From contig NZ_JODR01000005.1 of assembly GCF_000725885.1 (NCBI RefSeq), positions 222,345-286,344 on the forward strand: a DNA stretch of 64,000 bases. The letters are read 5' to 3'. Origin of the DNA: Streptomyces albus subsp. albus (GTDB lineage Bacteria; Actinomycetota; Actinomycetes; Streptomycetales; Streptomycetaceae). Under the pieces are notes generated by a model that saw nothing but the letters and a program-made list of their open reading frames with translations, had not been told where the DNA came from and searched no databases. Numbering within the stretch: the stretch's first letter is position 1; each line of letters opens with the position of its first letter. Of this stretch, positions 1-13,301 are shown one piece after another. Made by a program: the position numbers and the translations under genes.

Positions 1-2345
1 ACCGGATCACCCGTGCCGACCTCGACCGCATCCCGATCGGCCGGCCCATCGCCAACTCGACCGCCTACGTGCTGGACGAGGACGGCCGCCCCTGCCCGGT
101 GGGGGTGCCCGGCGAGCTGTACCTGGGCGGCGCGGGGGTCGCCCGCGGCTACCTGGGCCGGCCGGAACTGACCGCCGAACGCTTCGTCCCGGACCCGTTC
201 GCGGGCGCGGTCCGTGACTCGTTCGCGGACGCGGCCCAGGAACCGGAACCGCAAGCGGAACCGCACCCCCGCCCCGGAGCCGCCGGGGGAGGGACGGCCG
301 GCGGTCCGCGGCTCTACCGCAGCGGCGACCTGGCGCGCTGGCGGCCCGACGGGGTGCTGGAGTTCCTCGGCCGGCGCGACCACCAGGTGAAGGTACGCGG
401 CTTCCGGATCGAACCGGCCGAGATCGAGAAGGCCATGACCCGGCACCCCGGCGTCGCCGAGGCCGTCGTCGTGGCCCGGTCCCGCCCCGGCCGCAGCGAG
501 AAACACCTGTGCGGCTACTACACGGGACACCCCGGCGGCCGTGCGGACGAGCACACGGGGACGTCCGCGCCCGCGCCGGAGGACCTGCGGGCCGCCCTCG
601 CCTCGGCGCTGCCCGACCACATGGTCCCCGCCTTCCTGGTGCCGCTGACCGCGCTGCCGCTCAACCACAACGGCAAGGTGGACCGCTCCCGGCTGCCCGA
701 CCCGGACGGGGCACACCTGCTGGACCGGGCCTCCTACGTGCCGCCCCGCGACGAGACCGAAGCCGTTCTCGTGCAACTGGCCGAGAAAGCGCTGGGCATC
801 AGCGGTGTCGGTACCGCCCACGATCTGCGGGACCTGGGAGCGGACTCCCTCACCGCGACGCTGCTGGCCGCCGGCGTGCGGCAGCGCCTCGGCCGCGAGT
901 GCCCCGTCAGCGCCGTCCTGGCCGACGGCACGCTCGCCCGGCTCGCCGCGCGGCTGCGTGCTGCCCCGCCCTACCAGGGCAGCACCGTCCCTGCGGCACC
1001 CCGGCAGTCCACCCATCCGCTCACGCCCCAGCAGCGGCAGGTCTACTTCGAGCAGCTGAAGGACGAGAGCGCGGTCACCTACAACGTGCCCGTCACCCTG
1101 GCCCTGCCCGCCGACACCGAGCCGCACCGGCTGGCCGACGCACTCCAGCAGCTCGCCGCACGGCACGACGCGCTGCGCACCCGCTTCGTCGCCGAGGACG
1201 GGGAGATCCGGCAGCGCGTCGAGCCCACCGTGCGGGTACCGGTGCTGATCGGCGACGGCCCGCCCGGACCGGTACGGGACTTCGTGCGCCCCTTCGACCT
1301 GGGGAAGGCGCCGCTGTGGAGGGCCGGGATCCACCGCACGGCGGCACAGGTGACGCTCCGCCTCGACCTGCACCACATCGTGGTCGACGGCTACTCGCTG
1401 GCGCCGCTCTTCGCCGACCTCGCCGCACTGTACGCGGGCCAGGACGCCCAGCCGCCGCCGCTCCAGTACCGCGACTACGCCCACTGGCTGGCGGGGGAGC
1501 GGGGCGCAGCCCTCCGCGAGGCCCAACGCCCCTACTGGGAGCAGGTGTTCGCCACCCCGCCCGACCCGGCGGACCTGCCCACCGACATGCCCCGCCCGCC
1601 GCTGCGCCCGCTCGACGGCGGCGTCGTCACCGGCGATCTGGGACAGACGCGGACAGCGCGGCTGCGCGCGGTGGCCCGTGAGCACGGCGTGACGCTCTTC
1701 GCCGTCCTCTCCTCCGCCCACAGCCTGCTGCTGGCCGCACTCAAGGGCAGCACGGACGTGACCGTGGGCGTGCCCGTCTCCGGCCGTACGGTGCCGGGGC
1801 TGGAGGGCACGGTGGGCATGTGCGCCAACACGGTGTGCCTGCGCACGGCGGTCGAACCCGGCCTGGACTACGGCACGTTCCTGCGCCGTACCGCCGAGGC
1901 CGCGGAGGGCGCCTTCGCCCACCAGGACTTCCCGTTCGAGGACCTGGTGGCACTGGCCGCGCCGGTGAGGGACTACAGCCGCACCCCCGTGTTCGACGCG
2001 CTCATCGCCCTGCACAGCGGGCGCTATCTGTCCGTCGACTTCCACGGCGCCAGGGTGCCGCTGCGGCTGGAGCAGACCGGCCAGGCCGTCTTCGACCTCA
2101 ACATGCAGATCCACGAGGACGCCGGCACCCTGCGGATCGCCTGGCAGTACGCATCCGGGCTGCTGCGGCACCGGACCGTCGAGGGCTGGTTCGCCACCTT
2201 CACCACGCTGCTGGACGCGCTGTGCGCCGACCCCTCGGCCACGCTCGGCACCCTGCTGCCCGGCCTCGCCCGGCCCCCGGCGCGGCCGGTACCCGGACCG
2301 CAAGCCGCGCCGGAACCGGACGCGAGCTTCGACTTCGACCTGTGA
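1..2345 (+). CDS. NRPS subunit, 3' part (A-T-C), truncated by window edge
   Basis: This is the C-terminal part of a multimodular peptide synthetase; the reading frame (codons from base 3) is open at the left edge. It starts within the adenylation domain: the A6 region (GELYLGGAGVARGYLGRPE), A7 (YRSGDLARW), A8 (QVKVRGFRIEP) and the A10 lysine (NGKVDR) are all present, but the substrate-code residues lie outside the window except the last Lys. A carrier domain follows with DLGADSL, its phosphopantetheine Ser at bases 846-848. A full condensation domain follows with HPLTPQQRQ and an intact HHIVVDG at about 1371-1391. The protein stops after this C domain, so it must hand its chain in trans to the next subunit. 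A long arginine/alanine-poor linker (about 190-300) interrupts A6-A7. Substrate unknown. Confidence 0.95.
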   Translation, partial: RITRADLDRIPIGRPIANSTAYVLDEDGRPCPVGVPGELYLGGAGVARGYLGRPELTAERFVPDPFAGAVRDSFADAAQEPEPQAEPHPRPGAAGGGTAGGPRLYRSGDLARWRPDGVLEFLGRRDHQVKVRGFRIEPAEIEKAMTRHPGVAEAVVVARSRPGRSEKHLCGYYTGHPGGRADEHTGTSAPAPEDLRAALASALPDHMVPAFLVPLTALPLNHNGKVDRSRLPDPDGAHLLDRASYVPPRDETEAVLVQLAEKALGISGVGTAHDLRDLGADSLTATLLAAGVRQRLGRECPVSAVLADGTLARLAARLRAAPPYQGSTVPAAPRQSTHPLTPQQRQVYFEQLKDESAVTYNVPVTLALPADTEPHRLADALQQLAARHDALRTRFVAEDGEIRQRVEPTVRVPVLIGDGPPGPVRDFVRPFDLGKAPLWRAGIHRTAAQVTLRLDLHHIVVDGYSLAPLFADLAALYAGQDAQPPPLQYRDYAHWLAGERGAALREAQRPYWEQVFATPPDPADLPTDMPRPPLRPLDGGVVTGDLGQTRTARLRAVAREHGVTLFAVLSSAHSLLLAALKGSTDVTVGVPVSGRTVPGLEGTVGMCANTVCLRTAVEPGLDYGTFLRRTAEAAEGAFAHQDFPFEDLVALAAPVRDYSRTPVFDALIALHSGRYLSVDFHGARVPLRLEQTGQAVFDLNMQIHEDAGTLRIAWQYASGLLRHRTVEGWFATFTTLLDALCADPSATLGTLLPGLARPPARPVPGPQAAPEPDASFDFDL

Positions 2346-2436
2346 CCCGGCCGTCACCGGCCCGCGCTCCGCCGGCGACGGCGCGGCACGGGCGACGGCC
2401 GCGTCCCGCGAGCCGGACGCCACCACGACTCCGGCC

Positions 2437-2531
2437 GCACACCGTCCTGTCCACCGCACACCGTCCTGTCCACCGCACACCGTCCTGTCCACCGCACACC
2501 GTCCTGTCCACCGCACACCGCCCTGTCCGAC
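2437..2531. repeat. Five tandem copies of a 19-bp unit between two NRPS genes
   Basis: Between the stop at 2345 and the ATG at 2582 lies 236 bp without a gene. It contains a 19-bp unit (GCACACCGTCCTGTCCACC) repeated head to tail from 2437, 2456, 2475 and 2494. A fifth, degenerate copy starts at 2513 with a T-to-C change and a diverged end. The first four copies agree almost completely. The unit length is not a multiple of three and the repeats lie outside both reading frames. Probably slippage-prone spacer or a regulatory/RNA element; no function is shown. Confidence 0.9.
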
Positions 2532-2581
2532 GTCACTCCACACCTCGCTCGACCTCTCACCGCACCGTGCAGGAGACATCC

Positions 2582-5500
2582 ATGCAACTGCTCGACTCCG
2601 ACGCAGCACGCTCCGCACCGTCACCGCAGGCCGTGTACTGGCGATCCCGGTTGGCCTCGCTCGCGGAGACGTGCGGGTTCCTGCCCGACTTCCGGCCACC
2701 CGCCGGCCATGACCACACCGACCCGGTGCCGCCCGAGCGCGGCGCCCTCACCGTGCCGCTCGGCGCGGACCTCACCGAGCGGCTCGACCGCATCAGCCGC
2801 AACCGCCCCGAGATGCTGGCCGTCCTCCTCACCTCCGCCCTGGCCGCACTGCTGGGCCGGTGCACGGGCCGGGAGGAGGTGACCGTCGCCCTGCCGAAGC
2901 GGGGTGCCGCGCCGGGGTTCGCCGACGGACCGCTGCCCGTCTCCGTCGATCCGCGCGGCTGCCTGCGCGAACTGCTGGTCCGGGTCGGCGCCGCCGTCCA
3001 GGAGGCGGAGCGCAACCAGGACTGCGATGTGGCGGCGCTCGCCCGTGAACTGGATGTGACCGGCGTCCTGGAGACCGGACTGGCGCTCGACGGGCACCAC
3101 GAGGCCGGTTTCACCGCATCCGGTGTGATGCTCACCGTCTCCCGGACGGACGATGAGGAGCTGACGGCCGCCTTCTCCTTCGACCGGCACCGCTTCGCCG
3201 AAAGCTCCCTCGCCCACCTCGGCGCCCACTTCCGCCGGCTGCTGGAGGGAGCCACCGAGGAACCCGACCGGCAACTGTCCGGCCTCCCTTTGTGGAGCAC
3301 GGACGACGAGCGGATCGTCCAGACGGCCAACGACACCGCGCGGCCCTTCGACCAGGACGCCACCCTGCACGGCCTGTTCGCCGCCCAGGCGGCCCGCACG
3401 CCTGACGCCCCGGCGCTGCTCGCCGACGAGGACACCGTCACCTACGCCGCGCTCGACGCACGCGCCAACCGGCTGGCGCACACCCTGCGGGAGCGGGGCG
3501 TGGGCCCCGGCTCGATCGTCGCGCTGGTCACCGAGCGGTCGCCGGAGATGATGACGGCCCTGCTCGCCGTGCTGAAGGCCGGCGGCGCCTACCTGCCCAT
3601 CGACCCGTCGTACCCGCAGGCCCGGATCGACCACCTGCTGGCCGACAGCGGTGCACGACTGGTGCTGCACCAGGCCCGGTTCGGCGCACTGGTGGACGGC
3701 AGGCCGGCCCTCGACCTGGACGAGACGGCGTCGTACGCGGACCGTACGGACCCGGTGGACGAGACGGCGGGCGCGGGGGACGTCGCCTACGTCATCTACA
3801 CCTCCGGCTCGACGGGGCGGCCCAAGGGAGTGCTGGTCGAGCACCGCAGCGCCGTCAACCGGCTCCAGTGGATGCAGCGGGCCTATCCGCTCGGAGCCCA
3901 GGACGTCGTCCTGCAGAAGACGTCCATCTCCTTCGACGTGTCCGTATGGGAGCTGTTCTGGTGGTCCCTGGCCGGCGCGGCGCTGGCGCTGCCCGCCCCC
4001 GGCACGGAGAAGGACCCGGCGGCGCTGCTCGCGGCACTCGGCCGGCACCGGGTGACCACCACGCACTTCGTGCCGTCGATGCTGGGCATGTTCCTCGGCC
4101 ACCTCGACCGGTTCGGCGGCGGGGAGGCCACGCGGTCGCTGCGGCAGGTCTTCACCAGCGGCGAGGCCCTGGCGCCCGCGCAGGCCGACGGCTTCGCGCG
4201 GCTCGTCCCGCACGCCCGTCTGGTCAATCTGTACGGGCCCACCGAGGCGACCGTCGACGTCTCCCACCAGCCCGTCGAAGGACTCGGCGACCGCGCGCGG
4301 CTGCCCATCGGGCTGCCCATCGACAACCTCCGGCTGTACGTGCTGGACGGCGGTGGACGGCAGGCACCCGTCGGCGTTCCCGGCGAACTGCACATCGCCG
4401 GTACGGGCGTGGCCCGCGGCTATCTGGGCCGGCCGGAGCTGACCGCCCAGCGGTTCGTGACCGGCGAGGCGGTGCGCGAGGCCACCGGTGAGGAACGGCT
4501 CTACCGCACCGGGGACCTGGTGCGCCGGCTGCCCGATGGTGCCCTGGAGTACCTGGGCCGCATCGACGAGCAGGTGAAGGTACGCGGGTTCCGCGTCGAG
4601 CCGGGGGAGATCGAGGAGCGGCTGCGCACCCACCCCCGGGTGCGGGACGCCGCCGTCGTCGCCGTGGACGACGGCTGGCAGACGTCGCTGCGCGGCTTCG
4701 CCGTGCTGACCGGCGAGGCCACCGAGGCGGAGCTGAAGGAGCATGTGGCGGCGGCCCTGCCCGGCTACATGGTGCCCGGCCGGCTCGTCGCCGTCGACGA
4801 GCTGCCGCTGACGCCCAACGGCAAACTCGACCGCGCCGCCCTGCGCCGCCCGGAGGCCCTGCGCAAGAAGGCGCCCGCACACGTGGAGCCGCGCAACCCG
4901 CGCGAGGAGACCCTGGCCGGGATCTGGCGCCAGGTGCTCGGCTGCGAGCGGGTGGGGGTGAAGGACAACTTCTTCGCGCTGGGCGGCAACTCCATCCACT
5001 TCGTCTCCGTGCTGGCCAAGGCCCGTGAGGCGGGACTGGACTTCACCTTCCAGCAGCTGTTCAGGCACCAGACCATCGCCCAGCTGGTGGCGTCGATGGA
5101 GGAGACGGCCGGCGCGGGAAAGGCGGAGGAGGACGTGGCGGCCCGCGGCGCCTTCCGGCCCTTCGAGCTGGTCTCGGACCAGGACCGGGCGCTGCTGCCC
5201 GACGACGCGGAGGACGCCTACCCGCTCTCGATGCTCCAGGCCGGGCTGATCTTCCAGACGGAGATCACCGGCGGACTGGGCCAGTACCACGACGTCCTCA
5301 GCTACACCGTCACCGGCGCCTTCGACACCGCCGCCTTCACCGAGGCCGTACGGCTGCTGACGCTGCGGCACCCGATCCTGCGCACCACCTACCACCTGAC
5401 CGGGTACAGCGAATTCCTCCAGATCGTGCACCGCCGGGTGCCGCCGCCGCTGACCGTGACCGACCTGCGGCACCTGGACGAGGCGGGACAGGCGGCCTGG

Positions 5501-7603
5501 CACGAGGAGTGGCTGGCCGCGGAGAAGGCCCGCCGCTTCGTGTGGGAAGAGGGCGGACTGGTCACCCTGCATGTGCAGATCCTGGGCGACGAGCTGTACC
5601 GGTACACGGTCAGCCAGCACAACTCCGCGCTGGACGGCTGGTCCATCTCGCTGCTGCACACCCAGCTGTTCGAGCTGTACCACCAGGTGCGCGAGGGCCG
5701 TCGGACCGCACGGCCCGCCGTCGACAACCACCTGCGCAACTTCGTCGGGCTGGAGACCGAGGCACTGCGCAACGAGCGGTCCGGCGAGTTCTGGCGCACG
5801 GTGCTGGCCGACGCGCGTCCGGCTGACGTACCGCCGCGGCCGGACGCGGTCCCCACCGACGACTTCCGCGTCGTACTGCGGGACGTGCCGCTGCCCGCGG
5901 GTCTCACCCAGCGCATCGAGGCCACGGCGGACGCCCTGTCGGTGCCGTTCAAGGACGTGCTGCTGGCAGCGCACATGAAGGTGCTGAGCCTGGTGAGCGG
6001 GCAGCCGGCCGTGATGACCGGCTACGAACACAGCGGCCGGCCCGAGTTGCCCGACGCGGAGACGACGCTGGGCCTGCACCTGAACACGGTGCCGTTCCAG
6101 ATCGAGGTGGCCGGCGGCAGCTGGGCCGATCTGGTGCGGCGCGTCTACCGCGCCGAACTGGAGCTGCTGCCGCACCGGCGGTACCCGATGGCGCAGATGA
6201 AGCAGGACCTGGCCACCCAGCGGCAGCTGTTCTCCACCACCTTCAACTTCACGCACTTCTACCTGCTGAAGAACCTGCGCGAACTGCCCGAGTTCTCCAT
6301 GCTCCAGATGCGCGTGGACTCCGAGACGGAGTTCCCCTTCCGCACCGAGTTCTCCCGGCACTTCGCCGACGACGAGGTGCAGCTGTGCCTGCACTACCAC
6401 ACGCACCTGTACGACGAGGCGCAGATCGACCGGATCGGCGGCTACTTCGTCCGCGTGCTGGAGCTGATGGCGAGCGAGCCCGACGCCCCGCACGAGGCGC
6501 ACCGGCTGCTGGACGACGCGGACCTCGCGCTGCTGGGCACCGCGCCGCTGCCCGAGCAGTCCGGCGCCGCTCCCGCGCCCGGCGGCACCGCCTCGCGGGC
6601 CACCGTCGAGCGGATCCGCACCGTCTGGCAGCACGTGCTGGATCTGCCCGACGGGGAGATCGGCGACGGGGACGACTTCTTCGCGCTGGGCGGCAACTCC
6701 CTCTCGGCGCTGCGCGTCGTGCTGGAACTGGACGGGCTGGTCACCCTCACCGATCTGACCCGCGTGCCCCGGCTGGAGGAGCTGGCCGCCCTGGTCGACG
6801 GCCGCGGGGAGGAGGACGAGGAACTGCTCCACCTGCTCACCTCGGCCGGCCGGGACGCGCGGGCCGCCGTCATCTGCGTGCCGTACCCGTGCGGGCACCC
6901 GGTCAACTTCAAACCGCTGGCGGAGGAGATCGAGAAGCGCGACCCGGACCTGATGGTGCTCGGGCTGGAACCGCCGGGGCACAGCCCCAGCCGTCCGGGC
7001 CCGTTCACCGACGTGACTCAGACCGTCGAGCGGGTGGTCGCCGAGATCGAGGCGAAGGCCGACCTGCCGCTGATCCTGTGGGGGCACTGCGGCGGCGCGG
7101 CCGTCACGGTCGAGCTGGCCCGGGTGCTGGAGGAGCGCGGCTTCGACCTGCGGGAGGTCTTCATCGGCTCCAAGCTGCTGCCGCCGGCCCCGGACATGCG
7201 CGAGTCGATCGAGATGATCGAGAGCTGGACGGACGAGGAGATCATCTCCTACATGGTCGAGGAGACCGGCTACTCCGAACTGGACGGCCTCGACCACCGC
7301 TACACCGCCTTCACCGGCGACCTGTTCCGGCACGACGTGTGCGGCGGCTACCGGTACTTCATCGGGCTGACCGAACAGGATCCCGGGTGGCGGATCGAGG
7401 CGCCCTTCACCGTCGTCGTCGCCGACGACGACAAGGGCCTGGCCCACGCCGCCGACGAGTACCGCTGCTGGGAGCGGGTGGCCACCACCGTCCGCTTCCA
7501 CCGGCTCGCCTCCGGCGGCCACTACTTCGTGCGCGGCAACCCGGCCGCCACGGCCGAACTGATCGAGCGGGCGTGGACGTCCGCCGCCGGACTGGAGGAC
7601 TGA
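2582..7603 (+). CDS. NRPS: half-C, A(Ser), T, C, T, Cys-type thioesterase
   Basis: Peptide synthetase subunit of 1673 residues; ATG preceded by GCAGGAGACATCC. Order: residues 1-250 resemble only the C-terminal half of a condensation domain, without an HHxxxDG motif. The A domain (about 255-760) has code residues read by alignment to GrsA as DVWHFSLVDK, identical to the EntF serine code. T1 has Ser804. The second C domain (about 876-1310) has HNSALDG at 1013-1019, so the second, catalytic His of HHxxxDG is Asn. T2 has Ser1373 and no A domain of its own. The C-terminal thioesterase has GHCGG with Cys1503 where Ser is usual. T2 must therefore be charged in trans, perhaps by the Thr-type subunit at 9229. 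Cys nucleophiles are known in the thioesterases that close the rings of obafluorin (beta-lactone) and sulfazecin (beta-lactam). The product is unknown. Confidence 0.96.
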   Translation: MQLLDSDAARSAPSPQAVYWRSRLASLAETCGFLPDFRPPAGHDHTDPVPPERGALTVPLGADLTERLDRISRNRPEMLAVLLTSALAALLGRCTGREEVTVALPKRGAAPGFADGPLPVSVDPRGCLRELLVRVGAAVQEAERNQDCDVAALARELDVTGVLETGLALDGHHEAGFTASGVMLTVSRTDDEELTAAFSFDRHRFAESSLAHLGAHFRRLLEGATEEPDRQLSGLPLWSTDDERIVQTANDTARPFDQDATLHGLFAAQAARTPDAPALLADEDTVTYAALDARANRLAHTLRERGVGPGSIVALVTERSPEMMTALLAVLKAGGAYLPIDPSYPQARIDHLLADSGARLVLHQARFGALVDGRPALDLDETASYADRTDPVDETAGAGDVAYVIYTSGSTGRPKGVLVEHRSAVNRLQWMQRAYPLGAQDVVLQKTSISFDVSVWELFWWSLAGAALALPAPGTEKDPAALLAALGRHRVTTTHFVPSMLGMFLGHLDRFGGGEATRSLRQVFTSGEALAPAQADGFARLVPHARLVNLYGPTEATVDVSHQPVEGLGDRARLPIGLPIDNLRLYVLDGGGRQAPVGVPGELHIAGTGVARGYLGRPELTAQRFVTGEAVREATGEERLYRTGDLVRRLPDGALEYLGRIDEQVKVRGFRVEPGEIEERLRTHPRVRDAAVVAVDDGWQTSLRGFAVLTGEATEAELKEHVAAALPGYMVPGRLVAVDELPLTPNGKLDRAALRRPEALRKKAPAHVEPRNPREETLAGIWRQVLGCERVGVKDNFFALGGNSIHFVSVLAKAREAGLDFTFQQLFRHQTIAQLVASMEETAGAGKAEEDVAARGAFRPFELVSDQDRALLPDDAEDAYPLSMLQAGLIFQTEITGGLGQYHDVLSYTVTGAFDTAAFTEAVRLLTLRHPILRTTYHLTGYSEFLQIVHRRVPPPLTVTDLRHLDEAGQAAWHEEWLAAEKARRFVWEEGGLVTLHVQILGDELYRYTVSQHNSALDGWSISLLHTQLFELYHQVREGRRTARPAVDNHLRNFVGLETEALRNERSGEFWRTVLADARPADVPPRPDAVPTDDFRVVLRDVPLPAGLTQRIEATADALSVPFKDVLLAAHMKVLSLVSGQPAVMTGYEHSGRPELPDAETTLGLHLNTVPFQIEVAGGSWADLVRRVYRAELELLPHRRYPMAQMKQDLATQRQLFSTTFNFTHFYLLKNLRELPEFSMLQMRVDSETEFPFRTEFSRHFADDEVQLCLHYHTHLYDEAQIDRIGGYFVRVLELMASEPDAPHEAHRLLDDADLALLGTAPLPEQSGAAPAPGGTASRATVERIRTVWQHVLDLPDGEIGDGDDFFALGGNSLSALRVVLELDGLVTLTDLTRVPRLEELAALVDGRGEEDEELLHLLTSAGRDARAAVICVPYPCGHPVNFKPLAEEIEKRDPDLMVLGLEPPGHSPSRPGPFTDVTQTVERVVAEIEAKADLPLILWGHCGGAAVTVELARVLEERGFDLREVFIGSKLLPPAPDMRESIEMIESWTDEEIISYMVEETGYSELDGLDHRYTAFTGDLFRHDVCGGYRYFIGLTEQDPGWRIEAPFTVVVADDDKGLAHAADEYRCWERVATTVRFHRLASGGHYFVRGNPAATAELIERAWTSAAGLED

Positions 7604-7604
7604 C

Positions 7605-8318
7605 ATGCCGATCCCTGTGCTCTGCTTCCCGTTCGCCGGGGCCGGTGCCTCCGTTTACCGCCGCTGCCAGGAGTACGGCAGCGACACCGTGCGGATCCTC
7701 CCCGTGCAGCTCCCCGGCCGGGAGGAGAGGTTCGGCGAGCCGCTGCACACCGAGGTGACGGCCGCGGTGGACGGCCTGCTGCCCGAGGTGCTCGACCTGG
7801 TGGCCGGACACCCCGCCGTGGCGCTCTTCGGCCACAGCCTGGGCGCCGTGCTCGCCTACGAGACGGCCCACCGCATCGCCGGGCTCGGCCGGCCCGAACT
7901 GGTCACCCTCGTCGTCAGCGGCTCACCCGGCCCCTGGACACAGCGGGAGACCCGCGCCACCGGGCTGACCGACGAGGAGTTCCTGCGCCAGGTGCGCGAG
8001 TTCGCCGGCTACAGCCACCCGGCCCTCGAACACCCGGAGCTGCGCGAGATGCTGCTGCCGCCGCTGCGGGCCGATGTGGAGATGCACGAGAACTACCGGT
8101 CGCCGTCCGAGAAGCCGCTGGCCGTTCCCCTCGTCTCCGTACGCGGCGAGGACGACGAACTGGTCTCCCGGCAGCAGGCCGCCGAGTGGGAGGCCGCCAC
8201 CACCGGCGGCTGCCGTCAGGTCGAACTCCCCGGCGGCCACATGTACCTGGTGGACGACCCGGCCGGACTGATGCGGCTGCTCGAAGCGGAACTGGCCGGT
8301 CAGGGGGCGGGCAGATGA
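7605..8318 (+). CDS. Type II thioesterase (editing)
   Basis: A 237-residue alpha/beta hydrolase of the stand-alone thioesterase family that accompanies NRPS and PKS systems. It begins with the typical FPFAGAGAS oxyanion segment, carries the nucleophile elbow GHSLG (Ser) and a C-terminal His in GGHMYL, and is close to the usual 240-260 residues. Such enzymes hydrolyse misprimed or stalled acyl groups from carrier domains in the cytoplasm. The start lies one base after the NRPS stop and its own stop overlaps the next ATG, so it is part of the same operon. Unlike the integrated thioesterase of the previous gene, it keeps the normal Ser. A transfer role (SyrC-like shuttling between carrier domains) is possible in principle, but SyrC-type enzymes use Cys. 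Confidence 0.93.
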   Translation: MPIPVLCFPFAGAGASVYRRCQEYGSDTVRILPVQLPGREERFGEPLHTEVTAAVDGLLPEVLDLVAGHPAVALFGHSLGAVLAYETAHRIAGLGRPELVTLVVSGSPGPWTQRETRATGLTDEEFLRQVREFAGYSHPALEHPELREMLLPPLRADVEMHENYRSPSEKPLAVPLVSVRGEDDELVSRQQAAEWEAATTGGCRQVELPGGHMYLVDDPAGLMRLLEAELAGQGAGR

Positions 8319-9169
8319 CACAGCTGCTCGGCGCCCCGCCCCTGGCGGGCAAGGCGGCCGTCATCACGGGGGCGGCCCGCGGCATCGGCCGGGCGTGCGC
8401 GCTGGCGTACGCCCGCGCCGGGGCCGACCTGATGCTCACCGACATCGCCCGCGACCTGCCGGGCGTCCCCTACCCGCTGGGCACGGCAGGCCAGCTGGCC
8501 CACACCGCTCAGCTGTGCCGGGAGGCGGGAGCGGACACGGCGGTGGTGACCACCGCCGAGGCGGACGTACGCGACCTGGACGCGGTGCACGCGGTCGTGG
8601 CGGCGGCGCTGGACCGGTTCGGCCGCATCGACGTCGTGATCAACAACGCGGGCATCGCCGCGCCGTCCGGCAAGACCGTGCACGACATCACGCCGGACGA
8701 ATGGGAGCTGATGCTGGACGTCGACGTGTCGGGTGCCTGGCGGATGATCCGCGCGGTGGGCGCGGCGCTGACCCGGCAGCGCGGCGGCAGCGTCATCAAT
8801 GTCTCGTCCACCGCGGGCCTGGTCGGCTACCGGCACTTCGCCGGATATGTGACGGCCAAGCACGCACTCGTCGGGCTGACCAAATCGGCGGCACTGGACC
8901 TGGCGCCGTTCGGGGTGCGGGTCAACGCGCTGTGCCCCGGCTCGGTACGGGACGACGAGGCTGCCGAGGGCGTCATGCTCAGCGAGATCGCCCGCTCCCT
9001 CGACGTGCCGGTGGCCGAGCACGAGGAGACGTTCGTGGCGGCGCAGCCGATGAACCGGCTGATCGAACCGGAGGACGTGGCGGGCGCCGCGGTGTGGCTG
9101 GGCTCCGACGCATCCCGCCAGGTGACCGGGTCCACGGTCACCGTCGACGGCGGGTTCACCAGCCGGTGA
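8315..9169 (+). CDS. SDR oxidoreductase, resembling the mycofactocin-coupled subfamily
   Basis: A 284-residue short-chain dehydrogenase whose ATG overlaps the preceding stop (ATGA). It has the cofactor motif TGAARGIG, NNAG, the catalytic Ser in NVSSTAG and YVTAKHA (Tyr and Lys), and the C-terminal VTVDGGFTS. After the second strand it has the insertion DIARDLPGVPYPLG followed by QLAHTAQLC. That insertion is characteristic of the SDR subfamily modelled as TIGR03971, whose members often hold NAD tightly and use mycofactocin as external acceptor; this assignment is from memory of the motif. Lying inside the NRPS operon, it probably oxidises or reduces a hydroxyl/carbonyl on a precursor or the peptide, for example a Ser or Thr side chain. 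No mycofactocin genes are visible here. Confidence 0.9.
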   Translation: MTQLLGAPPLAGKAAVITGAARGIGRACALAYARAGADLMLTDIARDLPGVPYPLGTAGQLAHTAQLCREAGADTAVVTTAEADVRDLDAVHAVVAAALDRFGRIDVVINNAGIAAPSGKTVHDITPDEWELMLDVDVSGAWRMIRAVGAALTRQRGGSVINVSSTAGLVGYRHFAGYVTAKHALVGLTKSAALDLAPFGVRVNALCPGSVRDDEAAEGVMLSEIARSLDVPVAEHEETFVAAQPMNRLIEPEDVAGAAVWLGSDASRQVTGSTVTVDGGFTSR

Positions 9170-9228: not shown

Positions 9229-12093
9229 ATGGACGGAACCGGCCGACTGTGCCAGGCGCTGGCCGTGCGGCTGCACAAGGGCGCCGACACCGAGCGGTTG
9301 CGGGCCCGGCTGGAGAGCCGGGGCGGCGGAGCCCGGCTGTGGGTGGAGGACTTCGACGAGGCGGCGGACGGTCCGCGCGCCACGGCCCGGCGCGAGAGGG
9401 AACTGTCCCGGCCGGCCGATCCGCGCTCCGGGCCCGGACTGCGGGCCGTGCTGCTGCGGTACGCGGACGGGACGAGCGATCTGATCGTGGTCGCCCACCA
9501 GGCGGTACTGCCCGAACCCTACGTATTGGTACGGCAGTTGCTCGGCGAGCACCCGCCCGCTGCGGACGGACTGCCCGGAGCCGACGCGCCCGGCGGGCAG
9601 CCGCCGCAGGCGCGAACCGCCGACCGTGCGGAGCGGCTGCGGGCGGCCCTCGCGGAACTCGACCGCCTCCCGGCCCCCGACTGGGGGCTGGGCACCGAGG
9701 GTGCCGCCACCGTGGGCCGGCACCGGTTCACGGTGCCGGCCGGCGGACCCGCCCCCGCACAGCTCACTCTCCGGGCGGCACTGGGCCTGGTACTCGCCCG
9801 CTGCACAGGACAGTCCCAGGTGGTGGTCGGCGCCGAGGCCGGTACCGCGGTGGCGTTCTCCGCGGACGGAGCACAGAGCGTGACGGCGTACCTGGAGCAG
9901 GTCGCAGGGGCCCGTCCCGCCGACGACGGCCCCCTCGTCGGTCTGCTGACCACCCGGACCGCCGACGTCATCACCGGGGACGGGGTGAAGGCCGAACCCT
10001 TCGCCGCCCGCCCGTTCCTGGACCCGCCTCACGCGCTGTCGCTGCACATCGCCGACGACGGCTCCACCGTGCTGGAGGGCCGGTGCGCGTACCGGCACGC
10101 GGCGTTCGGGGACGCGGCGGTGGAGTGGTTCACCGGCATGCTGGCGACCGCACACCGGGCGCTGCTGACCGCCGACCCGGCCACCCCGGTGGGGGAGTTG
10201 CCACTCTTCGACGAGGAGCAGCGGGCGGCGCTGGCCCGGCTCGGCGGACTGGGGCGCCGGCCGGCGGTGCCCGGCGAGCGGATCGAGGAGACCGTCGGCC
10301 GCCGCGCCGCCACGACTCCGGACGCCCCCGCCGTCTGTTTCGGCGAGATCCGGCTGACCTACCGCGAACTGGACGGGCGCGCGGCCCGGTTCGCCGCCCG
10401 CCTGCGCGAGCTGGGGGTGGCCCCCGGCGACCGGGTGGGCGTGTGCCTGGACAGGTCGGCGGACCTGGTGGTGACCCTGCTCGCAGTGCTCAAGGCCGGA
10501 GCCGCCTACGTACCGATGGACCCCGCCTACCCGGCCGAGCGGCTGGCCTACACCACCGAGGACGCCGGCCTGTCCCTCGTCGTCACCGAAGCCGGCGGCG
10601 TGCCCGAACGCGACGGACTGCGGCTGGTGAGCCCCGCCGCGCTCGACCGTCCGGTGGCGTTGCCGCAGCCCGCCCCGGCGGGGCTGTCCGCGGACGATGC
10701 GGCGTACGTCATCTACACCTCCGGCTCGACCGGCCGCCCCAAGGGTGTCGTGGTGCCGCACCGCAACGTCGCCGCCCTGCTGGCCGCCACCGAGGAGGAC
10801 TTCCGCCTCGGTGGGCGGGATGTGTGGACCCTCTTCCACTCCAGCGCGTTCGACTTCTCCGTCTGGGAGATCTGGGGCTGCCTGATGACGGGCGGCCGGC
10901 TGGTGGTGGTGCCCTACTGGGCGTCCCGCGACCCGGCCCAGTTCGCCGCCCTGCTGGAGAGCGAGCAGGTCACGGTGGTCAGCCAGACCCCCAGTGCCTT
11001 CGCGCAGCTGATGGCGGCGGACCGGGAGCGCCGCGTCGCGGGGGCGGTGCGGCTGGTCGTCTTCGGCGGCGAGCCGCTGGACACCCGTCCGCTGCGGTTC
11101 TGGCTGGACCAGCACCCCGAGCGGGAATGCCGCCTCGTCAACATGTTCGGAATCACGGAGACGACGGTCCACGTCACGGCCCAGACCGTCACCCGCCGCG
11201 AGGCACTGGCCGCCTCCCGGTCGGTGGGCCGGCCGCTGCCGGGCTGGCACCTGTACGTCCTCGACCCGGACGGCCGCCCGCTGCCGCCCGGCGTCGCCGG
11301 CGAAATCCACGTCGGCGGGGCCGGTGTGGCGGGGCACTACCTCAACCGGCCCGAACTGACCGCCCAGCGGTTCCTGCCCGACCCCCACGCGCCCGGACCG
11401 ATGTACCGCAGCGGCGACCGGGGCAGACTGCTGCCCGACGGCCGCCTCGAACACCTGGGGCGGCTGGACAACCAGATCAAGCTCCGCGGGTTCCGCATCG
11501 AACTGGACGAGATCCGCTCCCGCCTGCTGGAGGCGCCCGGGGTCACCGCCGCGGCCGTCGTCCTGCGGCAGGGCCAGGACGGCGACAGCGCCGGGGCGCG
11601 GCTGGACGCCTATGTGGTCCTCGGTACGGACGCCGCGCACCTGCCGCATGGCGCAGACGGCTCCGAGGACCGCACCGAGGACGGGACCGCGCGGGTACGG
11701 CAGCACGCCGCACGCTTCCTGCCCGAGCACATGGTGCCCGCCACCGTGACGGCGCTGCCCGCACTGCCGCTGACCCCCAACGGCAATGTGGACACCGGCC
11801 GGCTGCCGCTCCCCCTGACGGGCGGCCCCGCCGGGGCGGGCCGGGCCGGGCCGGAACCGGAAGCGGACGACGTCGAGTCCCGGCTGCGCACCGTGTGGGA
11901 GAAGGTCTTCGGCTTCCGGGTCGGACTGGACGACGACTTCTTCTCCCTGGGCGGCAACTCCCTGCTCGGCGTACGGCTGCTGGCCGCGCTCAAGGCCGCG
12001 GGGCTGCCCGGATTCCCCCTGCCGCAGCTGTACCTGCACCGCACCGTGCGGCAGCTCGCCCCCGTCCTGGCGCGGCAGGAGGTGCCCGCATGA
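9229..12093 (+). CDS. NRPS: degenerate C-like region, A(Thr-type), T
   Basis: A 954-residue synthetase; ATG with strong upstream purines (GGGAGGGAAGGACC). Residues 1 to about 345 align to a condensation domain in shape, but the active-site segment reads AHQAVLPEPY (about residue 89) instead of HHxxxDG, so it cannot be a normal condensation catalyst. The A domain (about 345-850) has YIYTSGSTGRPKG-type A3, and code residues read as DFWSVGMVHK. This differs at two positions from the common threonine code DFWNIGMVHK, so Thr or a close analogue is predicted. The T domain carries Ser911 in LGGNSL. There is no functional C, E or TE domain. A 6-bp hairpin (9184-9200) lies between the SDR stop and this start. 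It could charge the A-less final module of the 2582 gene in trans, as SyrB1 does in syringomycin. Confidence 0.95.
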   Translation: MDGTGRLCQALAVRLHKGADTERLRARLESRGGGARLWVEDFDEAADGPRATARRERELSRPADPRSGPGLRAVLLRYADGTSDLIVVAHQAVLPEPYVLVRQLLGEHPPAADGLPGADAPGGQPPQARTADRAERLRAALAELDRLPAPDWGLGTEGAATVGRHRFTVPAGGPAPAQLTLRAALGLVLARCTGQSQVVVGAEAGTAVAFSADGAQSVTAYLEQVAGARPADDGPLVGLLTTRTADVITGDGVKAEPFAARPFLDPPHALSLHIADDGSTVLEGRCAYRHAAFGDAAVEWFTGMLATAHRALLTADPATPVGELPLFDEEQRAALARLGGLGRRPAVPGERIEETVGRRAATTPDAPAVCFGEIRLTYRELDGRAARFAARLRELGVAPGDRVGVCLDRSADLVVTLLAVLKAGAAYVPMDPAYPAERLAYTTEDAGLSLVVTEAGGVPERDGLRLVSPAALDRPVALPQPAPAGLSADDAAYVIYTSGSTGRPKGVVVPHRNVAALLAATEEDFRLGGRDVWTLFHSSAFDFSVWEIWGCLMTGGRLVVVPYWASRDPAQFAALLESEQVTVVSQTPSAFAQLMAADRERRVAGAVRLVVFGGEPLDTRPLRFWLDQHPERECRLVNMFGITETTVHVTAQTVTRREALAASRSVGRPLPGWHLYVLDPDGRPLPPGVAGEIHVGGAGVAGHYLNRPELTAQRFLPDPHAPGPMYRSGDRGRLLPDGRLEHLGRLDNQIKLRGFRIELDEIRSRLLEAPGVTAAAVVLRQGQDGDSAGARLDAYVVLGTDAAHLPHGADGSEDRTEDGTARVRQHAARFLPEHMVPATVTALPALPLTPNGNVDTGRLPLPLTGGPAGAGRAGPEPEADDVESRLRTVWEKVFGFRVGLDDDFFSLGGNSLLGVRLLAALKAAGLPGFPLPQLYLHRTVRQLAPVLARQEVPA

Positions 12094-13301
12094 CGCTCCT
12101 GCTGGTGGGCGCCGGCTCCCAGGTCTACCGCGAATACCTGCTGCGTCCGGTCGCCCAGGAGTACGACGTCCATCTGCTCGCCGAACGCGGGCCCACCTGG
12201 GAGACGCCGTATCTGTCCGGGCACACCGCGGTGGACACCGCCGATGTCGCCGCGATGGCCCGCGCGGTCCGGGGGCTGCCCGTCGAAGGGGTGCTGACCT
12301 GGGACGACACCCGGGTGGTGCAGACGGCGGAACTGGCCGCGCTGCTCGGTCTGCCCGGTACCCCGCCGCAGGCGGCGCTGGCCTGCCGGGACAAGCGGGC
12401 CACCCGTGAGGCCCTGGCCGCGGCCGGGGTGCCGCAGGCCCGGTCGGTCGCCGTCTCCTCGCTGCCCCAGGCGCGGGCCGCGGCGGCACAGGTGGGCTAC
12501 CCGCTCGTCCTCAAGCCCCGGGCCCTCAACGCCAGTACGGGCGTGGTGCGGGTGGCAGCGCCGGACGGGCTGGCCCGCGCCTTCCGGCTGGCCCGCGGTG
12601 CCACCGCACCCGGCGCGGTGGAGGTGGCACCCGGTGACGTCCTGGTCGAGGAGTATCTGGACGGGCCGGAGATCAGCGTGGACGCCGTTTGGTACCAAGG
12701 CCGGATGACACCCGCCTTCACCGCCCGCAAGGAGTGCGGCTTCGCCCCGTACTTCGAGGAGACCGGCCATCTCGTGGACGCCGCCGACCCGCTCCAGGAC
12801 GATCCCGCGGTCCGGGACGTGGTCGAACGTGCTCACGAGGCCGTCGGGTTCACCACCGGCTGGACGCACACCGAACTGCGGCTGACCGCGGACGGACCGA
12901 AGGTGGTCGAGATCAACGCGCGGATCGGGGGCGACCGCATCCCCGACATCGGCCGGCTGGCGCTGGGGACCGACGCGGCGCTGGCCGCCGCCCGCCTGGC
13001 CTGCGGTGGCCCACCGGACATCCGCCCCGGGCGGCACCGGGCGGCGGCCGTACGGTTCCTGTATCCGGAGGCGGACTGTCTCGCCCGTACCGTGCGGATC
13101 GACGCGCGCGCCCTGCCGGCGTCCGTCGTCGAAGCCGCGCCGATCGCCCTGCCCGGCCAGGAGTTGCGGCTGCCGCCGCGCGGCCACGTCTCCGGCCGCT
13201 ACGCGCTGATCACGGCCGTGGCCGGGACGCCGGACGCCTGCCGCGCCGAGCTGGAGAAGGCGGCGCAGGCGGTGCGTCTGGAGGTGCTGCGCCTCCTGTG
13301 A
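12090..13301 (+). CDS. ATP-grasp carboxylate-amine ligase
   Basis: A 403-residue ATP-grasp protein whose ATG overlaps the NRPS stop. It resembles the L-amino-acid ligase branch (BacD/carnosine synthase-like). A small N-terminal Rossmann part starts LLLVGAGSQVYREYLL. The central lysine motif is PLVLKPRALNASTG, the second ATP-binding segment is VEEYLDGPEISVDA, and the metal-binding motif VVEINARIGGDRIPDI holds the Glu/Asn Mg ligands. The family activates a carboxylate as acyl-phosphate and couples it to an amine. It is the last gene of the NRPS operon and is followed by a terminator. It may attach an extra amino acid to the peptide, make a dipeptide building block, or close an amide; the substrate cannot be read from sequence. 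Confidence 0.92.
   Translation: MTLLLVGAGSQVYREYLLRPVAQEYDVHLLAERGPTWETPYLSGHTAVDTADVAAMARAVRGLPVEGVLTWDDTRVVQTAELAALLGLPGTPPQAALACRDKRATREALAAAGVPQARSVAVSSLPQARAAAAQVGYPLVLKPRALNASTGVVRVAAPDGLARAFRLARGATAPGAVEVAPGDVLVEEYLDGPEISVDAVWYQGRMTPAFTARKECGFAPYFEETGHLVDAADPLQDDPAVRDVVERAHEAVGFTTGWTHTELRLTADGPKVVEINARIGGDRIPDIGRLALGTDAALAAARLACGGPPDIRPGRHRAAAVRFLYPEADCLARTVRIDARALPASVVEAAPIALPGQELRLPPRGHVSGRYALITAVAGTPDACRAELEKAAQAVRLEVLRLL

Follow-up and report, generated by a model that had tools for sequence, protein, structure and literature searches.

The stretch analyzed here (the window) comprises 64,000 nucleotides of contig NZ_JODR01000005.1 (positions 222,345 to 286,344) from the 7.63-Mb genome of Streptomyces albus subsp. 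albus, and it opens with a nonribosomal peptide synthetase (NRPS) cluster on the + strand that is quite probably, and with good support, an assembly line for a trans-loaded tripeptide. The first synthetase, NRPS1 (1..2345; 1299 aa), whose gene starts 1554 bases ahead of the window and has a major facilitator superfamily (MFS) gene directly upstream, consists of adenylation (A), carrier (T) and condensation (C) domains in the order A-T-C. It is followed by NRPS2 (2579..7603; 1674 aa, numbered from the ATG at 2579), for which Pfam and translation give the order A-T-C-T-TE, ending in a thioesterase (TE). Further downstream are a stand-alone type II thioesterase (TEII; 7605..8318; Pfam) with the motif GHSLG and a proposed role as an aminoacyl shuttle, a carveol-dehydrogenase-like short-chain dehydrogenase/reductase (SDR) oxidoreductase (8315..9169), an A-T protein (9229..12093) whose long N-terminal part looks like an incomplete C domain, and an ATP-grasp ligase (12090..13301), whose closest solved relatives are the L-amino acid ligases BL00235 and BacD. 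ATGA overlaps between the TEII and SDR genes, the former fixing the start of the latter, and between the A-T and ligase genes are suggestive of coupled translation. The gap between NRPS1 and NRPS2 contains a tandem repeat (window 2435-2528) with 4.9 copies of a 19-bp unit at 98% matches.

Substrate codes obtained by alignment outline the likely building blocks. The A domain of NRPS1 carries DAFWVGGTFK, which we take to be Val-like, and its C1 domain has the canonical motif HHIVVDG. The A-T gene at 9229-12093 is real, and its product carries DFWSVGMVHK, a code of the Thr type proposed in the first-pass annotation of this DNA; SyrB1 of the syringomycin pathway reportedly loads Thr before chlorination on the carrier. 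Within the Thr/dehydrobutyrine section of PMC12283262, DFWSVGMVHK is apparently paired with gamma-chlorothreonine, and the code of the A2 domain of NRPS2 (3377..4825; Pfam), DVWHFSLVDK, appears as an exact Ser code in the material available from PMC3795760. The T1 carrier domain of NRPS2 (4910..5092; Pfam and translation) has the motif GGNSI, with Ser805.

The feature singled out in the first-pass annotation, a GHCGG-type Cys thioesterase beside a T domain that has no A domain of its own, is borne out by translation and Pfam, with the residue numbers shifted by one (Cys1504, not 1503; T-domain Ser1374, not 1373). No A domain was found by Pfam between C2 and the terminal carrier T2 (6590..6802; Ser1374 at 6698-6700), and the gap between the C and T profiles amounts to only 17 residues, leaving no room for one. 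The TE (6821..7600) displays GHCGG at residues 1502-1506, with Cys1504 (7088-7090) as the nucleophile together with Asp1618 (7430-7432) and His1648 (7520-7522). By sequence as well as by predicted fold, ObiF1 and SulM are the solved proteins closest to it, with TEIIs and macrocyclizing TEs ranking behind; the comparison proposed at the outset as a possible refutation places the domain with SulM and ObiF1 and apart from ordinary macrocyclizing TEs, and so neither refutes nor proves ring formation. Asp1618, invariant in 21 aligned sequences, lies just past model strand 251-256 (beta7), and the segment after beta6 (FIGSKL) contains no Asp; placement of the Asp after beta7 (position II) is common to ObiF1 and SulM according to the sections of PMC11298585 drawn on here. 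Nucleophile, Asp position, fold and sequence are therefore all of the ObiF/SulM type. In the literature cited here, as far as its text was available, the characterized Cys TEs closing four-membered rings are ObiF and SulM, to which PMC11298585 adds predicted ones. A database search with the T-TE region, with scoring limited to the 7991 candidates that had the most words in common, returned 77 proteins; 60 of these have the A-less T-C-T-TE order, with a Cys nucleophile in 59, the remaining one (P0079) stopping short of the site.

Likeness to ObiF1, the enzyme of the beta-lactone obafluorin, extends to the Cys nucleophile, the Asp after beta7, the best sequence match, a near-best fold and a predicted terminal residue that is also beta-hydroxylated. 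Unlike the window synthetase, with its A-less T and predicted tripeptide, ObiF1 is described in PMC6668435 (part of the text) as C-A-T-TE-MLP with a cis A domain; the Pfam hits of NRPS2 show no MbtH-like domain (MLP). From SulM, which forms the beta-lactam of sulfazecin, the window TE differs by having HCG in place of QCN, and the last module has no A domain coding for 2,3-diaminopropionate (Dap). A monobactam was considered as the product and rejected: the Gln-Cys-Asn motif, a hallmark of SulM-type beta-lactam TEs in the available portion of PMC11298585, is replaced, the A-T code is of the Thr type, and no sulfotransferase was found in the Pfam hits of 28 scanned open reading frames (ORFs), a part of those in the window, which together make such a product unlikely.

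Loading of T2 in trans by the A-T protein, as suggested by the first-pass annotation, corresponds to a known arrangement, in which a Thr-type code is accompanied by an adjoining TEII. In the syringomycin system (SyrB1/SyrC/SyrE), as in that of legonmycin (LgnA/LgnB/LgnD), a Thr A-T didomain reportedly charges an A-less T with the aid of a separate transferase or TEII; the legonmycin line differs in that its A-less T belongs to the first module rather than to a T-TE end, and the window cassette adds an SDR. LgnA, a TEII, carries Thr from the A-T protein to the A-less T (PMC8748450, in part), and the window has the same set of components, namely the GHSLG TEII (nearest solved relative, RifR), a stand-alone A-T protein and the A-less recipient T2. 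The main evidence that the trio of TEII, SDR and A-T serves the A-less T-TE comes from gene fusions and gene order: C-T-TE-TEII-A-T form one polypeptide in L045, C-T-TE-TEII form one protein with A-T adjoining in L213, and in cousin G086 the TEII-SDR-A-T genes lie ahead of NRPS1 and NRPS2 (identities of 57, 72 and 48%, respectively). The fused TEII domains of L045 and L213 have GHCLGG with a Cys nucleophile, vs. GHSLG in the window.

The C2 domain of NRPS2 (5210..6523) belongs to the dehydrating (CmodAA/DHC) clade, as indicated by its affinity to McyA (1.4e-83, 284 bits) and AmbE-C2 (1.8e-48, 169 bits), its best matches in PDB, the next one reaching 117 bits. In the excerpted text of PMC10880069, AmbE-C2, AlbB-C2 and LgnD-C2 form a dehydrating clade, and AlbB-C2 converts Ser to dehydroalanine (Dha) within a Val-Ser-Thr line. 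The motif in the window, HNSALDG (5618-5638), departs from the HHxxxDG of this clade by an Asn in place of the second His, a residue proposed as the catalyst of amide formation (PMC8748450). HNxxxDG is shared by all 60 A-less T-C-T-TE homologues, and in cousins that have their own cis A domain the motif is of the HD (L044, L047, P0050) or HA (P0076) form; retention of HHxxxDG in the fused A-less L045 and L213 counts against a tight link between the HN form and trans-loading (L214 and L215 were left out of these motif counts). Dehydration of Ser by C2 is, on balance, rather likely, though clouded by the HN motif.

A similar front end is present in the AmbB/AmbE system of L-2-amino-4-methoxy-trans-3-butenoic acid (AMB), where A-T-C and A-..-T-C-T-TE synthetases also combine an A-less last T with a dehydrating-clade C2. 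The differences include a Cys rather than Ser TE, HNxxxDG rather than HHxxxDG, and separate A-T, TEII and SDR proteins in the window; NRPS2 has no methyltransferase domain among its Pfam hits, and no iron/alpha-ketoglutarate-dependent oxygenase, of which AMB has two, was detected in the scanned ORFs. The albopeptide line (AlbA/AlbB) shares Val, Ser and Thr with the predicted window product, as well as a dehydrating-clade C2 after the Ser module, but it terminates with a hydrolyzing C3 domain (PMC10880069, in part) instead of a T-TE with Cys and a trans-loaded Thr. Comparison with AMB also brings up the alternative of a T2 that gets no residue from the A-T protein: A1 would load T2 in trans, or T2 would just receive the dipeptide from T1, and the trio would make an amino acid for the ATP-grasp ligase. 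Trans-loading of AmbE T2 by the AmbB A domain (reported in 2015, PMC4357302) and passage of the AMB dipeptide from T1 (a 2023 review, PMC10880069), both as given in portions of these sources, would be in line with this scheme, as would the second His missing from C2; it is nevertheless improbable, given that TEII and A-T are tied to an A-less T-TE by gene fusions, and that cousins with an HD-type C domain have a cis A domain before T-TE, pointing to a normal third residue.

With T2 charged by the A-T protein, the following route may be proposed. NRPS1 would activate a Val-like residue, and the canonical C1 would join it to Ser on T1. The C2 domain would then act on Ser, probably yielding Dha, and hand the chain to a third residue, predicted to be Thr, which the A-T protein would activate and the TEII would deliver to the A-less T2, a role assigned to the TEII because of the close analogy and the gene-fusion support. 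The chain would pass to Cys1504, the acyl-Cys step following from the triad, and attack of the Thr beta-hydroxyl on the thioester would give a peptide with a beta-lactone end, ring closure being the least certain step. Judging by their families, the MFS protein would probably export the product and the ATP-grasp ligase would probably add an amino acid. Release of Val-Dha-Thr (or Val-Ser-Thr) as the Thr beta-lactone is the leading single outcome, to which we assign a probability of roughly 0.38. Such a peptide would carry two electrophiles, dehydroalanine and a strained lactone, and a reactive, antibiotic-like product is plausible.

Several observations weigh against lactone closure, most of them from a survey of the TE family. 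The intake of 108 loci (from a genus search of 150 genomes, a class search of 394 genomes and a named scan) represents the stronger matches among those listed, weaker ones not being included; 107 loci with both T and TE recognized were kept, 106 of them distinct, and the tree comprises these 106 plus six reference rows. The family holds Ser enzymes and many terminal codes: position II is Asp in 106/106 TEs, and the nucleophile is Cys in 71, Ser in 34 and Gly in one. Terminal codes among the Cys members include 25 Asp-like, 14 Ser-like and 6 DMYNFGLIHK, and in the group with DIW(Q/E) codes the nucleophile is Ser in 31, Cys in 6 and Gly in 1; all 14 distinct A-less members have Cys. Two controls come closer to ObiF1 than the window TE does, one of the Ser type (3.9e-30) and one with Cys and a Ser-like code (7e-26), making the likeness to ObiF1 a family trait. 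In the tree, furthermore, the window TE does not nest with ObiF1, each being placed in its own half of the family; its grouping with SulM is weak (96/70), SulM itself having a terminal branch of 2.4. The adverse points also include the missing second His of C2 as compared with the fused A-less L045 and L213, the presence of the SDR within the loading cassette, in cousin G086 too, and the fact that no characterized member of this cluster family was found and that no product is on record.

Closeness to SulM (70 bits for the window TE vs. 51 for the Ser-type control, with none listed at 1e-6 for the Cys control) is, by sequence comparison, the only one of these likenesses more particular to the window TE. 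After the survey and the two controls, the presence of Cys can no longer be taken as enough to infer a lactone. The original argument leading from Cys to a four-membered ring is thus not supported, considering the Ser enzymes, the varied codes of the Cys members and the greater closeness of a Ser-type TE to ObiF1; on sequence grounds, the Cys nucleophile alone does not predict such a ring. Among loci with DIW(Q/E) codes, L037 (DIWQSTADDK) has PALP and ornithine-cyclodeaminase-like genes (Pfam, six neighbor genes), L051 (DIWQSTADDK) has PALP with no ornithine-cyclodeaminase-like gene among the four neighbors scanned, and cousin L044 (DIWEMTADDK) has an ornithine-cyclodeaminase-like gene. These genes, presumably involved in the biosynthesis of Dap, suggest Dap as the substrate. 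Many family ends thus carry a beta-nucleophile, fitting the ring idea, although this is not obvious for the Asp-like group, and Ser is used by most of the probable Dap group. L037 also encodes a hexapeptide-repeat carrier protein, an A(DIWQSTADDK)-T-TE protein with a Ser nucleophile and a TauD dioxygenase; in 31 distinct TEs of the survey, this A code likewise precedes a TE of the Ser type. The family TE of L048 has GQGTG for GHSxG and Pro for the catalytic His.

The same assembly line may end in mere hydrolysis by the Cys TE, giving a linear Val-Dha-Thr-type peptide to be exported or trimmed in the manner of AMB or albopeptide, an outcome that is unlikely but a serious contender. AMB, made by synthetases in the same A-T-C / A-..-T-C-T-TE order, is released hydrolytically, and albopeptide, derived from Val, Ser and Thr, ends linear (both from the available text of PMC10880069); TEIIs are the next matches of the window TE behind ObiF1 and SulM. 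Yet the active residue of the AMB TE is Ser (PMC4357302, in part), as opposed to the nearly invariant Cys of the A-less homologues, and the folds closest to the modeled window TE are those of ring-closing enzymes.

The best argument against the lactone is that the Thr hydroxyl could be lost through the action of the SDR, an enzyme with carveol dehydrogenases as its closest solved relatives; if that hydroxyl is oxidized, no beta-lactone is possible. Oxidation of A-T-bound Thr would give a beta-keto residue that, once transferred, would decarboxylate to a methyl ketone or cyclize to a 5-methyloxazole, with the TE only releasing the product. Such a carrier-bound oxidation reportedly has a precedent in NovH/NovJ/NovK. 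Conservation of the TEII-SDR-A-T cassette in the window, its close orthologues and cousin G086, the SDR being the best kept of the three in the latter, is consistent with this route, as is the kinship with carveol dehydrogenases. We nonetheless consider it distinctly unlikely: L212, whose cis A domain carries the DFWSVGMVHK code, has no SDR match within 20 kb, so this code does not need this SDR; and no SDR match was obtained in the stretches searched of L139 and of the fused TEII/A-T systems L045 and L213. Mycofactocin was rejected as a partner of this SDR, which scores 271 bits vs. a cut-off of 300, and no maturase above the cut-off was found in its own genome (two matches fall below it).

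All eight intact close copies that were inspected (the window, G138, G006, S. populi, S. noursei, G504, G410 and G284), some of which may belong to one species, preserve the gene order MFS-NRPS1-NRPS2-TEII-SDR-AT-ligase. The NRPS2 and A-T codes are identical in the seven copies besides the window, and the NRPS1 code is changed at one position in G410 and at two in G504. In a ninth copy, L036 (G088:C1), the cluster has decayed: NRPS2 is reduced to its last 81 residues, the TEII survives in part, the SDR match covers residues 3-277, and the first 218 residues of A-T run directly into the latter half of the ATP-grasp gene. Among database proteins, the one nearest to NRPS2 belongs to a Streptomyces (99% identity across the T-TE region), and homologues occur in Streptomyces, Jatrophihabitans, Micromonosporaceae and other actinobacteria. 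The view of the first-pass annotation that this combination has no exact match therefore holds for characterized systems and fails for genomes, close homologues being common in actinobacteria; the dehydrating clade of C2 and the SDR in the loading cassette had escaped it. Protein searches gave only generic names among the matches listed, and among the listed matches in open-licence literature (titles and abstract starts) there was no account of the cluster, the combination or a Val-Dha-Thr lactone. Each part has a known counterpart (an ObiF/SulM TE, an AMB/albopeptide front end and LgnA-type loading), and their combination is undescribed in the literature searched. That a large actinobacterial family makes Val-dehydroalanine-threonine beta-lactones by loading Thr in trans and using a C domain of the dehydrating clade that works without the second His is a tentative and rather unlikely generalization. 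The family nevertheless offers natural variants (Cys/Ser switches; Thr-, Dap-, Ser- and Asp-like ends) for testing whether Cys plus a position-II Asp leads to four-membered ring closure, as well as a dehydrating-clade C domain with Asn for the supposed catalytic His, uniform across its A-less T-C-T-TE homologues.

Some further architectures were encountered among the proteins with a TE of this family. Nine NRPSs (P0069-P0071, P0073-P0075, P0077, P0078 and P0080) also bear MFS transporter domains (PF05977/PF07690), fusions that look as if the product passes straight from release into the exporter. P0064 has the order A-T-C-T-C-T-TE, with one A domain for three T domains and a second C domain of the HN type.
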